NCBI RefSeq assembly: GCF_012844235.1 | Contig: NZ_JABAGR010000004.1 | Coordinates: 1 to 64,000, forward strand | Direction of reading: 5' to 3' | Origin: Parafannyhessea umbonata | GTDB lineage: Bacteria; Actinomycetota; Coriobacteriia; Coriobacteriales; Atopobiaceae | Length of the DNA stretch: 64,000 nucleotides | In this document: positions 20,008-25,742 of the stretch, in pieces | How the letters are laid out: every line of letters begins with the position of its first letter | Position numbering within the stretch: the stretch's first letter is position 1 | Program-made: the position numbers and the translations under genes | The notes under the pieces: model-generated | What the model was told of the DNA's origin: nothing | What the model saw: the letters and a program-made list of their open reading frames with translations, nothing else | Database searches by the model: none

Positions 20008-21405
20008 CTACATGCCCTCCACCATGGCCTCGTCGGACTGAAGGCGCGCCTTGGCCTCGCCCAGCTGCACGCGGACGGCGTCGTGCCCGGTGCCGCCGTA
20101 GGTGTTGCGCGCGCGAGCGATGCCCGCGGGGTCCAGGTCCGCCACCACGTCCTCCTCAAACAGGTCGCTCGCTGCCTGGAACTCCTCCAGCGTCAGATCC
20201 TCCAGGCCCTTGCCGTGCTTCTCGCAGTACAGCACCAGCTCGCCCACCACCTCGTGGGCGCGGCGGAACGGCATGCCCTTCTTCGCAAGGTAGTCGGCCA
20301 CGTCCGTCGCGGCCGTAAAGCCCGCCTTCGCCTCCTCTAGCATCCTGTCCGCATGCACGGTCCAGGTGTCGATCATGCCCTCCATGCAGGTCATGCAGTC
20401 ACGCAGGGCCTTCGCTGAGTCGATGGCGCCCTGCTTGCACTCCTGCAGGTCCTTGTTGTACGCAAGCGGCAGCCCCTTCATCGTCACCAGGAGCGCCACC
20501 AGGTTGCCAACCACGCGCCCGGACTTGCCGCGCGTGAGCTCGGCAAAGTCGGGGTTCTTCTTCTGCGGCATGATGGAGGACCCCGTGGAGTACTCGTCGC
20601 TCAGCGTGACGAACCCAAACTCCGTGGTGGACCACGTGATAATCTCCTCGCACAGGCGCGAGAGGTGCATCATGCTCACGCTGCAGGCAAACAGCAGGTC
20701 AAGCAGGTAGTCGCGATCAGATACCGCATCCATCGAGTTTGGGATGGGGTGGTCGAAGCCCAAAAGCTCCGTGGTATAGAAGCGGTCCAGCGGGTACGTC
20801 GTGCCCGCGAGCGCGGCCGAGCCCAACGGGTTCGCATCGGCGTCCTCAAAGGCAGACTCGATCCTCTTCAGGTCACGCGTGAACATCCAGAAGTACGCCA
20901 GAAGATGATGCGAGAAGAGCACGGGCTGGGCATGCTGCATGTGCGTATAGCCCGGCATCACCACGTCGAAGTTCTTCTCGGCCGCCGAAAGCAGGGTCTT
21001 CCGCAGCTTGCAGTTCTCTTTCGCGAGCTCGCGCAGCATGTCCTTTGCCAGGAGCCTGATGTCCGTCGCCACCTGGTCGTTGCGGGAACGCCCGGTGTGC
21101 AGGCGCGCTCCGGGCGCGCCGATGTCGCGAATGAGCGCGCCCTCCACGGCCATGTGGATGTCCTCGTCGTTCACGTCCCACGCAAACGTGCCGGCGTCGA
21201 TCTGGCCCCTTATCCTCAGCAGGCCGGCCTCGATCTTCTCTGCGTCCTCCTGGGGGATGACACCTTGGCGGGCAAGCATCCTTGCGTGCGCGATGGAGCC
21301 CGCGATGTCTTGCGCGTACATGCTCTTGTCATCCTCGAGCGACGCGCCAAACTCCTGCGTGAACTCGCTCACTCCCTGCTCAAAGCGGCCTGACCAAAGT
21401 GCCAT
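20008..21405 (-). CDS. argH: argininosuccinate lyase
   Basis: This enzyme catalyses the last step of arginine synthesis, argininosuccinate to arginine plus fumarate. The 465-aa protein has GSSIMPQKKNPD, HTGRSRNDQVATD and PGYTHMQHAQP. It lies 36 nt after argG, so the two form one operon. The SD is poor (AGGG directly before ATG), so translation may depend on argG. It is read from the leader described at 22870-22968. Confidence 0.97.
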   Translation of the reverse strand: MALWSGRFEQGVSEFTQEFGASLEDDKSMYAQDIAGSIAHARMLARQGVIPQEDAEKIEAGLLRIRGQIDAGTFAWDVNDEDIHMAVEGALIRDIGAPGARLHTGRSRNDQVATDIRLLAKDMLRELAKENCKLRKTLLSAAEKNFDVVMPGYTHMQHAQPVLFSHHLLAYFWMFTRDLKRIESAFEDADANPLGSAALAGTTYPLDRFYTTELLGFDHPIPNSMDAVSDRDYLLDLLFACSVSMMHLSRLCEEIITWSTTEFGFVTLSDEYSTGSSIMPQKKNPDFAELTRGKSGRVVGNLVALLVTMKGLPLAYNKDLQECKQGAIDSAKALRDCMTCMEGMIDTWTVHADRMLEEAKAGFTAATDVADYLAKKGMPFRRAHEVVGELVLYCEKHGKGLEDLTLEEFQAASDLFEEDVVADLDPAGIARARNTYGGTGHDAVRVQLGEAKARLQSDEAMVEGM

Positions 21406-21441: not shown

Positions 21442-22704
<1,263 letters not shown>

Positions 22705-22812: not shown

Positions 22813-22841
22813 AAAAAAGGCGCCCGGCTCTGCCAGGCGTC
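22813..22841 (-). terminator. attenuator-type terminator in the argG leader
   Basis: Minus strand: GACGCCTGGC pairs with GCCGGGCGCC around AGA (one mismatch, one G-U) and TTTTTT follows. It starts 29 nt after the stop of the Arg-rich leader ORF and ends about 110 nt before argG, so argG can only be transcribed by read-through. Confidence 0.8.
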
Positions 22842-22869
22842 TACACTGTCCAGTTTTAGGCTTGTTGAA

Positions 22870-22968
22870 CTATGCCTCGAGGACCGAAGTGAGCGCGCGC
22901 TGGCGTCGCAGCGTGGAACGTCGATCCTGGCGTCGGAGGGAGTTGATCATGTTGAGCGTGAATGCCAT
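22870..22968 (-). CDS. putative arginine-rich leader peptide of argGH, 32 aa
   Basis: A 32-codon ORF starts at an ATG preceded by an exact AAGGAGG with eight-base spacing (AAGGAGGGGTTTTAT). Residues 12-24 read RRQDRRSTLRRQR: seven Arg in thirteen codons, three of them CGA, which I expect to be uncommon in a GC-rich genome. The position before a terminator and the arginine operon matches the design of amino-acid attenuators (his, trp, leu leaders), in which a ribosome stalled at the regulated codons prevents terminator folding. Six bases, GCCAGG, at codons 13-15 can pair with CCTGGC of the terminator 5' arm. Whether it is translated is inference. Confidence 0.6.
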   Translation of the reverse strand: MAFTLNMINSLRRQDRRSTLRRQRALTSVLEA

Positions 22969-23340
22969 ATAAAACCCCTCCTTCATGCGTTGTGCTGCAT
23001 CCATTGCAGCGCTTCCTGCGTTGGTGAAAGACTTTAGCGGCAAAATCGGGCCACACAACCCAGAATCTTGGTTCGAGACACGTTCGTAACAATGTCAACA
23101 CAACTCCATAACGATTGTCACGCACGTGGCCACGGTGCAAGATACGTGCAAAAACGTGCCCGCGGCGCTGCCAATGACCCCTGTGGGCGCCCGATGCCGC
23201 ATCTCACAAGCTGTCATGACATCGCTATTCAAACCATTGCATCAAGAAGTTCACGCCATGACGCCGTAGAGAAACAGGGGCCCGCCTAGGCGAGAAGTGC
23301 CTGATAGGCGGCTGTAAGGCCGCTGCCGTATGCTAGGCAC
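22969..23340 (-). other. upstream region of the arg leader, no gene seen
   Basis: No convincing protein or RNA gene was found. The minus strand has a TTGACA (23093-23098) but no -10 at the right distance, and a small hairpin GCTGCA..TGCAGC just before the leader SD. The right part holds a GCGAGAAG repeat (23290) and short GC hairpins. No clear ArgR-type operator was recognised. Confidence 0.4.
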
Positions 23341-23388: not shown

Positions 23389-23464
23389 TGGTGGGTCGTG
23401 TGGGTCTCGAACCCACGACCTTGGGATTAAAAGTCCCCTGCTCTACCAACTGAGCTAACGACCC
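23389..23464 (-). tRNA. tRNA-Lys(TTT)
   Basis: The minus strand shows acceptor GGGTCGT/ACGACCC, anticodon loop CTTTTAA (TTT) and an encoded CCA. A TATCAT -10-like element lies just upstream at 23484-23489. Confidence 0.98.
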
Positions 23465-23502
23465 TCATGTGTGCGTACGGAAAATGATATCACGTCGGGC
23501 AG

Positions 23503-24786
23503 CTATTCGCTCTCCCAGGCCCACGCACCGTTGCGAAACACGGGGACCTCCTCGCCGGACGCCTTCACACCCGTGACGTTGAGGTCGTCGGAGCCAATCA
23601 TGAAGTCCACGTGCGTGGCGGACTGGTTCACGCCGCTCGCGAGCAGGGCGTCCTTGTCCATGTCCAGGCCGCCCTCCAGGCACTCCGGGAAGCCCGTTCC
23701 CAGCGCAAGGTGACAGCTGGCGTTCTCGTCGTACAGGGTGTCAAAAAACAGCAGGCCGGACTGCCTTATCGGCGTGCGCTTCGATATGAGCGCGCACTCG
23801 CCAAGGTACGCGGCGTTCTCGTCGGTCTCTATAATGTGGCGCAGCACTTCTCCCCCGCGCGCGGCGTCGTACTCCACGACCTTGCCGCCCTCGAATCTCA
23901 GCCAGAAGTCGTCCACGATCTGTCCGGCGTGCACCAGGGGCATCGCGGAGTACACGATGCCGTCCACGCGCGTGCGTGCCGGCGTGGTGAAGACCTCCTC
24001 CGTCGGGATGTTCGGGAAGAACACGGTGCCGTCCACGGTGCGGCCGGCGCCACCCTCCCAGATGCCTTTCGCGTTCAGGCCAACCGTGAGGTCGGTGCCG
24101 TTCTTCGAGGTGTAGTGCAGGCGATCGAAGGCCATGTCGTTCAGGAAGCCCTTGTTCTTCTCGAACGCGGCGTTGTGGGTCTCCCAGTCAAGCTGCGGGT
24201 CAAGGCCGTCGGCGCGCGCGACCTTCAGGATCGCAAGCCACAGGCGATAGACCGCCTCGTAGGGGGCGCAGTCGGGAAAGACCTTCCGCGCCCACGCCTC
24301 CACGGGCGCGCCGGCGATGCACCAGACGTTCTTGCCAAAGTCCATACCGTTTCTGAACGAGAGGCACTCCGTGTTGCGCGCGTGCGCCGCCGCGGCGGGC
24401 TTCGCGGGGTCGATGCCGTCCAGCGCGGATGGGTCGCTGCCCTCTATGAACAGGAAGCACGCGCCCGCCTCGGCAAGCGAGTTCAGCTGCTCCACCTTCC
24501 ACGTGGGCGTGTGGCGAAAGTGCTCCAGCGGCACGTTCTCATACTCCAGCCGCGCCATCGCGTCGTCGCCCCAGATCACGGTCACGTGACCGGCGCCCTC
24601 GCGATAGGCCAGGCGCACCACGCGCCTGGCAAAGTCAGCGCACTCCACGGGGGCCTGGACCACGACCTCCTGTCCTTCTCGCACGCAAAGGCCCTTGCGC
24701 ACAAGCAGCTCCGCGTACTTGTCAATCTGGCCGCTCAGGCCCTCTATGGCCAGCGTGCACTCCTCGCGGGTCATTCCCTTGCTCAC
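23503..24786 (-). CDS. M29-family aminopeptidase (aminopeptidase T/AmpS type)
   Basis: This cytoplasmic metallo-aminopeptidase has 427 aa, typical of the family. Metal-binding regions are visible near the C-terminus: YLGECAL (Glu), FFDTLYDENASCHLALG (Glu and His) and THVDFMIGS (His and Asp). The start is GTG at 24786 (VSKGMTREEC) with AGAGG upstream. The reading frame stays open far upstream through two tRNA genes, which is only a shadow. It is monocistronic between tRNA-Gly and tRNA-Lys on the same strand. Confidence 0.92.
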   Translation of the reverse strand: MSKGMTREECTLAIEGLSGQIDKYAELLVRKGLCVREGQEVVVQAPVECADFARRVVRLAYREGAGHVTVIWGDDAMARLEYENVPLEHFRHTPTWKVEQLNSLAEAGACFLFIEGSDPSALDGIDPAKPAAAAHARNTECLSFRNGMDFGKNVWCIAGAPVEAWARKVFPDCAPYEAVYRLWLAILKVARADGLDPQLDWETHNAAFEKNKGFLNDMAFDRLHYTSKNGTDLTVGLNAKGIWEGGAGRTVDGTVFFPNIPTEEVFTTPARTRVDGIVYSAMPLVHAGQIVDDFWLRFEGGKVVEYDAARGGEVLRHIIETDENAAYLGECALISKRTPIRQSGLLFFDTLYDENASCHLALGTGFPECLEGGLDMDKDALLASGVNQSATHVDFMIGSDDLNVTGVKASGEEVPVFRNGAWAWESE

Positions 24787-24867
24787 GTTCGCACCTCTTC
24801 TCTTGTGGCTTTGCGGCGTCAACGGAAGACGCCCGTAAGGTCCCGGCCAACCGGCCGCCGGACCGCA

Positions 24868-24894
24868 AACAAATACGGGCCCCGAAGGGCCCGT
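24868..24894 (-). terminator. terminator of tRNA-Gly
   Basis: A perfect 8-bp stem ACGGGCCC/GGGCCCGT is followed on the minus strand by ATTTGTTTG. Another strong hairpin lies between this and the aminopeptidase (GGTCC..GGACC). Confidence 0.75.
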
Positions 24895-24904
24895 CTGACA
24901 TCCA

Positions 24905-24979
24905 TGGAGCGGGCAACGGGATTCGAACCCGCGGATGATGGCTTGGGAAGCCATTGCCTTACCACTTGGCGATGCCCGC
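24905..24979 (-). tRNA. tRNA-Gly(CCC)
   Basis: The minus strand shows acceptor GCGGGCA/TGCCCGC, anticodon loop TTCCCAA (CCC) and an encoded CCA. Length is 75 nt. Confidence 0.97.
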
Positions 24980-25248
24980 ATCTGTTTGAGCATTCTAACA
25001 CAGCTTGCCCAACGCGGGGAGTGCGGGCACAATTCCTTCCGCACAAGCCGCAAAGCAACGCGCATGGCCGCGGGCGAGAAGGACATGGGGCCAAGACTAG
25101 CAGGCATCTCCTTACCATGTACGCAATTCCAGCCCGTCGCGGTACCCCTGACCTGCAAGAAGGTAACTGCAAGACGCGTGCGAGCCATCTGCAGGTGCCG
25201 TTTGCTACGCTTTCCGTCCACGAAGGCCCCCATAGGAAGGTGAACCAC

Positions 25249-25428
25249 ATGGTCGAACGCGAACCGCGTCAGAACGCCGAGGTCACAAAGGCCAAGGAGC
25301 CAACACGTCATGGTCTGGCCAACAGGCCGGGCCGCTGTCAGCTTCGCGGCGGGGACCCCATAAGGGGCGGCGTCCCGCTTGCCGCCGGGCATGCCGGCCT
25401 CTTGGGAGGTGATCGTCGCGCGCTGTAG
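25249..25428 (+). CDS. possible small protein, 59 aa
   Basis: An ATG with GGAAGG nine bases upstream opens a 59-codon frame ending in TAG, in an otherwise empty 500-bp gap between tRNA genes. An extended -10-like TGCTACGCT lies about 45 bases upstream. The product is basic and Gly/Arg-rich with no domain I recognise. It may be chance in GC-rich DNA. Confidence 0.3.
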   Translation: MVEREPRQNAEVTKAKEPTRHGLANRPGRCQLRGGDPIRGGVPLAAGHAGLLGGDRRAL

Positions 25429-25492
25429 AAGAGCCGTCACATCGCAACAAAAAGGAAGTCCACCAATGTAGGAATGTCGTTGCGCGTCTAAT

Positions 25493-25518
25493 AAAAAACC
25501 GCGGGAGCGTACCCGCGG
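25493..25518 (-). terminator. terminator of tRNA-Ala
   Basis: On the minus strand CCGCGGGTACGCTCCCGCGG is followed by TTTTTT. Confidence 0.92.
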
Positions 25519-25529
25519 CATCATAAACA

Positions 25530-25605
25530 TGGTGGAGACGATGGGGATCGAACCCACGACCTCAGGCTTGCAAAGCCCGCGCTCTCCCAGCTGAGCTACG
25601 TCCCC
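25530..25605 (-). tRNA. tRNA-Ala(TGC)
   Basis: The minus strand shows the acceptor starting GGGGACG, anticodon loop TTTGCAA (TGC) and an encoded CCA. It is paired with tRNA-Ile as in many rRNA spacers, but no rRNA is present here. Confidence 0.98.
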
Positions 25606-25608
25606 GAT

Positions 25609-25653
25609 AATAATCGCCCCAGCGGCGACTCGGCTAGCGCTGGGGCGATTATT
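25609..25653 (-). terminator. 16-bp perfect hairpin between tRNA-Ile and tRNA-Ala
   Basis: AATAATCGCCCCAGCG pairs without mismatch with CGCTGGGGCGATTATT. The AT-rich base would act as the U-tract on either strand. It could terminate the tRNA-Ile transcript or guide processing. Confidence 0.75.
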
Positions 25654-25665
25654 CTCAAGAAAAAA

Positions 25666-25742
25666 TGGTGGGCCCGACAAGGTTCGAACTTGTGACCTCC
25701 CGGTTATCAGCCGGACGCTCTGACCAACTGAGCTACGGGCCC
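25666..25742 (-). tRNA. tRNA-Ile(GAT)
   Basis: The minus strand shows acceptor GGGCCCG/CGGGCCC, anticodon loop CTGATAA (GAT) and an encoded CCA. A GCGAGAAG repeat lies four bases upstream of the gene. Confidence 0.98.

Follow-up and report, generated by a model that had tools for sequence, protein, structure and literature searches.

The argGH genes of Parafannyhessea umbonata are preceded by a leader that very probably acts as a ribosome-mediated transcription attenuator reading the supply of arginyl-tRNA. Throughout, the window is the whole 64,000-nt stretch of DNA that was analysed, and the features described here lie on its minus strand. Among relatives the leader ORF, its reading frame, its codons and the terminator behind it are conserved, as are mutually exclusive RNA pairings whose strands coevolve. 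A first-pass annotation, made from the letters alone, had proposed an arginine attenuator at this place, and the comparison with relatives supports that proposal, since the ORF, the Arg codons, the terminator and the coevolving antiterminator are kept at argG across 15 genera.

The leader ORF (22870..22968) has 32 codons (MAFTLNMINSLRRQDRRSTLRRQRALTSVLEA) and lies 8 nt behind a perfect Shine-Dalgarno (SD) sequence, AAGGAGG (22977..22983), for which same-frame counterparts are found in relatives. Arg is encoded at codons 12, 13, 16, 17, 21, 22 and 24, that is 7 in 13, with CGA at codons 12, 16 and 21. The conserved Arg codons of predicted regulatory role form the sensor core, CGA CGC CAG GAT CGA CGT (RRQDRR; 22918..22935), which was recovered by both a peptide search and a core regex. 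In the 64-kb window no other short SD-preceded ORF has at least 7 Arg per 13 codons, and first-order Markov random windows give a mean of 0.125 such ORFs per window. The terminator (22839-22813, CGCCTGGCAGAGCCGGGCG + CCTTTTTT) begins 30 nt beyond the leader stop and consists of an 8-pair stem-loop (CGCCTGGCAGAGCCGGGCG, 22821..22839) and a U-tract, TTTTTT (22813..22818). The first-pass annotation had described the 32-codon ORF with its perfect SD, seven Arg codons and three CGA, and a terminator about 30 nt past the stop followed by argG, and each of these is borne out by the minus-strand sequence.

The predicted regulated gene is argG, argininosuccinate synthase (21442..22704, ATG at 22704), identified by translation and a homologue search. 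It is followed after 36 nt by an ORF (20008..21405) that we take, from knowledge of such sequences, to be argH, argininosuccinate lyase, and then by purB. Four tRNA genes (Lys, Gly, Ala, Ile; 23389-25742, minus strand) lie between gyrA and the argG leader, and no link between them and the leader was seen. The genome has argGH and argR yet no argC above the family cut-off; argGH may therefore work in synthesis from citrulline, which may be the organism's only route to arginine. A second copy of the leader before argC was not found: strong matches to the covariance model described below number one per genome, and argC itself has no match above cut-off in the window genome.

The family of the window genome has named relatives that include Olsenella phocaeensis and O. 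porci, and argG was found in 122 of its 140 genomes. Of 90 argG upstream regions read from the family, about 50 contain a short ORF whose core reads (L/x)RRQxRR, and nearly all nearer relatives (genera g1, g5, g18-g27 and g32-g35) carry a core-bearing leader. Matches to the core pattern CGACGYCAGNNNCGACGW were obtained in 78 of the 140 family genomes, mostly at argG, and a reversed control gave few matches. Core codons 1 and 5 are CGA in 57 of 57 tabulated loci, a count to be read with the fact that the core regex partly selects for CGA; the peptide-based search recovered the same loci. In the window's long ORFs, by comparison, CGA accounts for 3.5% of Arg codons. Translation of the leader is predicted: 46 of the 57 relatives have an SD (at least 5 matches) and a start codon that share the frame of the core, against 0 and 2 for the other two frames.

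The tRNA-Arg anticodons typed in the window genome are ACG, CCG, CCT and TCT; tRNA-Arg(UCG), anticodon TCG, is not among the tRNAs typed there, eight long tRNA genes of 80-90 bases having been left untyped. The rare CGA is likely to be decoded only by the ICG tRNA. As a putatively slow codon, CGA could allow the leader to sense slow translation generally instead of arginine, which would make it a translation-stress attenuator, and both the rarity of CGA and its likely dependence on a single tRNA fit such a role. However, the element sits only before argG, once per genome, and every sensor codon is an Arg codon, CGC and CGT included, so that a general sensor of this kind is highly improbable.

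Two competing RNA folds are predicted in front of argGH. The 5′ strand of the antiterminator (region 2, 22881..22904) includes the second cluster of Arg codons (codons 22-24), and its 3′ strand (region 3, GGACAGUG ... CUGGC, 22832..22851) contains the 5′ arm of the terminator, both strands being assigned by folding, swap tests and pair counts. When the RNA was folded up to the terminator loop, a long hairpin between the ORF's 3′ half and the 5′ arm of the terminator appeared in nearly all loci shown. Across 12 genera the antiterminator strands pair with their own partners at -26.5 kcal/mol, compared with -20.6 kcal/mol for between-genus swaps, and none of 20000 permutations was as good. Pairing reaches 72%, against 30-52% in controls with a slid partner, and both sides have changed in 10 of the 20 antiterminator pairs (alignment A1). 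The held-out genus g95, which belongs to another family and was unused in defining the structure, behaves in the same way (own -33.9, swapped -28.5; 2/20000), and within it CGAUGC faces GCAUCG in some species while CGACGC faces GCGUCG in another. Additionally, alignment columns 44, 112 and 132 vary jointly as U-A-U or C-G-C, indicating that the same base is tied to both of its alternative partners, in the antiterminator and in the terminator. A terminator was recognised at 44 of the 49 loci, usually 80-105 nt beyond the core; none could be recognised at the other five, and at a few further loci it is poor. RNAalifold on the all-clade MAFFT alignment gave a poor consensus, because clades g18, g32, g33 and g34 are offset in the alignment, and it was set aside for the alignment-free swap tests and for pair counts with a named structure.

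A further, putative helix, the protector, would join AGGAUCGA (22921..22928) to UCGGUCCU (22880..22887), which overlaps the antiterminator 5′ strand. It appears to covary and is weaker than the antiterminator: 210 of 20000 permutations were as good in the same swap test, 79% of cells are paired with both-side changes in 3 of 5 pairs (alignment A1), and some members lack it. The first-pass annotation had suggested that six bases at codons 13-15 can pair with the terminator 5′ arm. The pairing, GCCAGG/CCTGGC, is there; the main conserved antiterminator pairing is a different one, which uses mainly the second Arg cluster and whose strand is predicted to start there, from codon 21 onward. The second cluster is interrupted by a stop or replaced in g27, g32, g33, g34 and part of g18 and g35, which points to it being antiterminator sequence more than sensor and places GCCAGG in the putative sensor/protector region.

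Conservation of the peptide is confined to LRRQxRR, and its N-terminus varies freely. The core Gln is almost invariant (CAG in 55 of 57 loci), as might be expected if the nascent RRQxRR peptide arrested the ribosome itself, perhaps with arginine or a related ligand, so that the same RNA switch would respond to a small molecule and not to uncharged tRNA. Poly-Arg slows ribosomes in general, and SpeFL/ORF34 with ornithine and the fungal AAP offer parallels. Arrest by the peptide is nevertheless very unlikely, because no residues upstream of the core are conserved, unlike in known arrest peptides, the inner core residue can be D, N, G, A, S or M, the stop lies at no fixed distance from the core (24-69 nt), and the conserved CAG is accounted for by its part in the putative protector pairing.

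Judged on sequence, the argG leader is a ribosome-mediated attenuator as that class is defined: it has a predicted short translated ORF (46/57 in frame, against 0 and 2), a cluster of codons for the amino acid of the downstream genes (RRQxRR before argG), an intrinsic terminator between ORF and gene, and an antiterminator that excludes the terminator, as indicated by swap tests and pair counts. From these features we infer ribosome stalling, read-through and a response to arginine. When charged tRNA-Arg is short, the ribosome would stop on the CGA/CGC codons of the RRQxRR core, and the 3′ half of the ORF, with the second Arg cluster and the next codons, would remain available for pairing with the region that contains the terminator 5′ arm; with this antiterminator formed, RNA polymerase would continue into argG. 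When arginine is plentiful, the ribosome would reach the stop codon and cover the antiterminator strand, the terminator would form and transcription would end before argG. If the leader is not translated, CAGxxxCGA of the core could pair with the antiterminator strand as the protector helix, favouring termination.

The geometry of the leader is consistent with this attenuation scheme. Given the usual size of a ribosome footprint, a ribosome with any core Arg codon in its A site is expected to cover the RNA to about nt 12-27 of the core, so that the antiterminator strand (nt 27 onward) would stay accessible. With the same assumed footprint, a ribosome that has reached the stop codon would cover all or part of that strand, early-stop clades included. 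Modelled engagement of the terminator 5′ arm, as genus means, is 0.85 with the ribosome on the core, 0.47 with it at the stop and 0.65 in shuffles. When the terminator 3′ arm is included, equilibrium folding still favours the terminator in the stalled state, in the window (0.96) and in several other sequences. The model therefore needs the antiterminator to form first, and the order of folding matters.

We ran a covariance model of the leader element (R1) on 397 genomes of the order and obtained strong matches in 84, one per genome, with 74 in the window's family and 10 in g95, a genus belonging to a second family. At each of the 31 loci tested by tblastn argG lies directly downstream of the leader, and argG is present in 356 of the 397 genomes. 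An even sample of the phylum yielded no further argG-linked R1 matches outside the order. Six order-level matches at E 0.002-0.008 were taken as chance, as were weak matches in distant members of the phylum (L186-L188), which have no argG nearby. Overall, comparative genomics places the predicted element far beyond chance.

There are also lineages in which argG is kept without the leader, namely genera g30 and g31 and some members of g33. At L079-L095 (g30 and g31) this argG is of the window's type, and no Rfam leaders were found at the argG loci tested in these two genera. Several of the lineages without the leader have argR immediately before argG. The first-pass annotation had proposed to align argG leaders of relatives and had held that a leader missing while argG is kept would speak against attenuation. 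The Arg codons and the coevolving alternative pairing turn out to be conserved at argG in 15 genera, and argG without the leader does occur, although only in other clades (g30, g31 and the lineages with argR beside argG).

The ArgR repressor is the textbook control of bacterial arginine biosynthesis. Since ArgR is also encoded in the window genome, dual control of argGH by attenuator and ArgR is possible. ArgR might even control argGH alone, with the leader and terminator being incidental or setting only a basal level, and its presence in 38 of 40 genomes searched, the window's own included, would allow this. But such a reading leaves a coevolving switch conserved at argG, and no ARG-box-like match (≤1 mismatch) was seen near the leader, a weak test given the degenerate pattern; ArgR is almost certainly not the sole control.

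Arg codons before argG were also observed in other families of the order. In f2, a sister family, 30 genomes from 14 genera each contain the pattern CTGCGACGACGNTAGTCGTC exactly once, and a reversed control gave no match. In most of the f2 loci read, the pattern forms the end of argR (..LRRR, CGA CGA CGN TAG), followed by GTCGTC, and it lies about 175-345 nt upstream of argG, just past the end of the ArgR domain match. Loci with the LRRR ending of argR are L250, L251, L254-L257 and L259-L270. An ArgR domain was not found in f2 genomes G260, G261, G278 and G279, two of which are 84-86% complete, and in these four the same LRRR ending closes a short stand-alone ORF upstream of argG. In family f10, short GTG-start ORFs upstream of argG at L243, L244, L246 and L247 end in RRQRAISRRR or ICALPRRR; they have CGA CGA CGA before the stop and are unmatched by R1. 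Together, f2 and f10 point to a wider use of Arg codons before argG than R1 detects, and the last codons of the f2 argR may act as leader codons for argG. A tentative extension, which we lean slightly against, is that Arg-codon control of argG is general across the order and may reside in the end of another gene: the f2 argR tail would double as attenuator sensor and would persist as a leader peptide of its own in genomes in which no argR was detected.

Arginine genes are known to be preceded by charging sensors of another kind in Firmicutes, where arginine-specific T-box leaders bind tRNA directly without translation (cited in PMC1262725). The T-box consensus was not found at the argG leader, the region has no Rfam match of any kind at E up to 5, and at 20 other argG loci no Rfam match reached the gathering score. 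The ORF34/SpeFL leader of speF in Salmonella and E. coli has consecutive Arg codons and responds to arginine, and it controls polyamine synthesis via Rho, masking of the ribosome-binding site and mRNA decay, without an intrinsic terminator (PMC6386406); the argG leader differs in having an intrinsic terminator and argG, not speF, downstream, and falls outside that class. In Staphylococcus aureus the rbfL leader uses rare Arg codons to sense arginine and blocks initiation of rbf translation (PMC13009471). The argG leader would share this Arg-codon sensing, but rbfL is not a transcription attenuator and rbf is not an arginine-biosynthesis gene.

A survey of Actinobacteria from 2005 found arginine operons to lack conserved RNA regulatory structures in their upstream regions (PMC1262725). 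The first-pass annotation knew of no described bacterial arginine attenuator of this kind, and we likewise found none for argG among open-access papers. The argG leader appears to be an arginine version of the classical trp/his attenuator not found described before in that literature. If so, it would add arginine to the amino acids under classical attenuation, provide Coriobacteria that have ArgR as well with a ready means of sensing Arg-tRNA charging, and offer a natural test of why rare CGA codons persist at sensing positions. Like the trp, his, leu and ilv attenuators, including those of trp and ilvB in Actinobacteria (PMC1262725, PMC11857589), it has, just before biosynthetic genes, a short SD-preceded ORF rich in end-product codons and an antiterminator and intrinsic terminator that exclude each other, as well as a putative protector. 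It differs from them in that its codons and genes are those of arginine, and in that its antiterminator strand lies largely within the 3′ half of the ORF, itself encoding Arg codons in most members.
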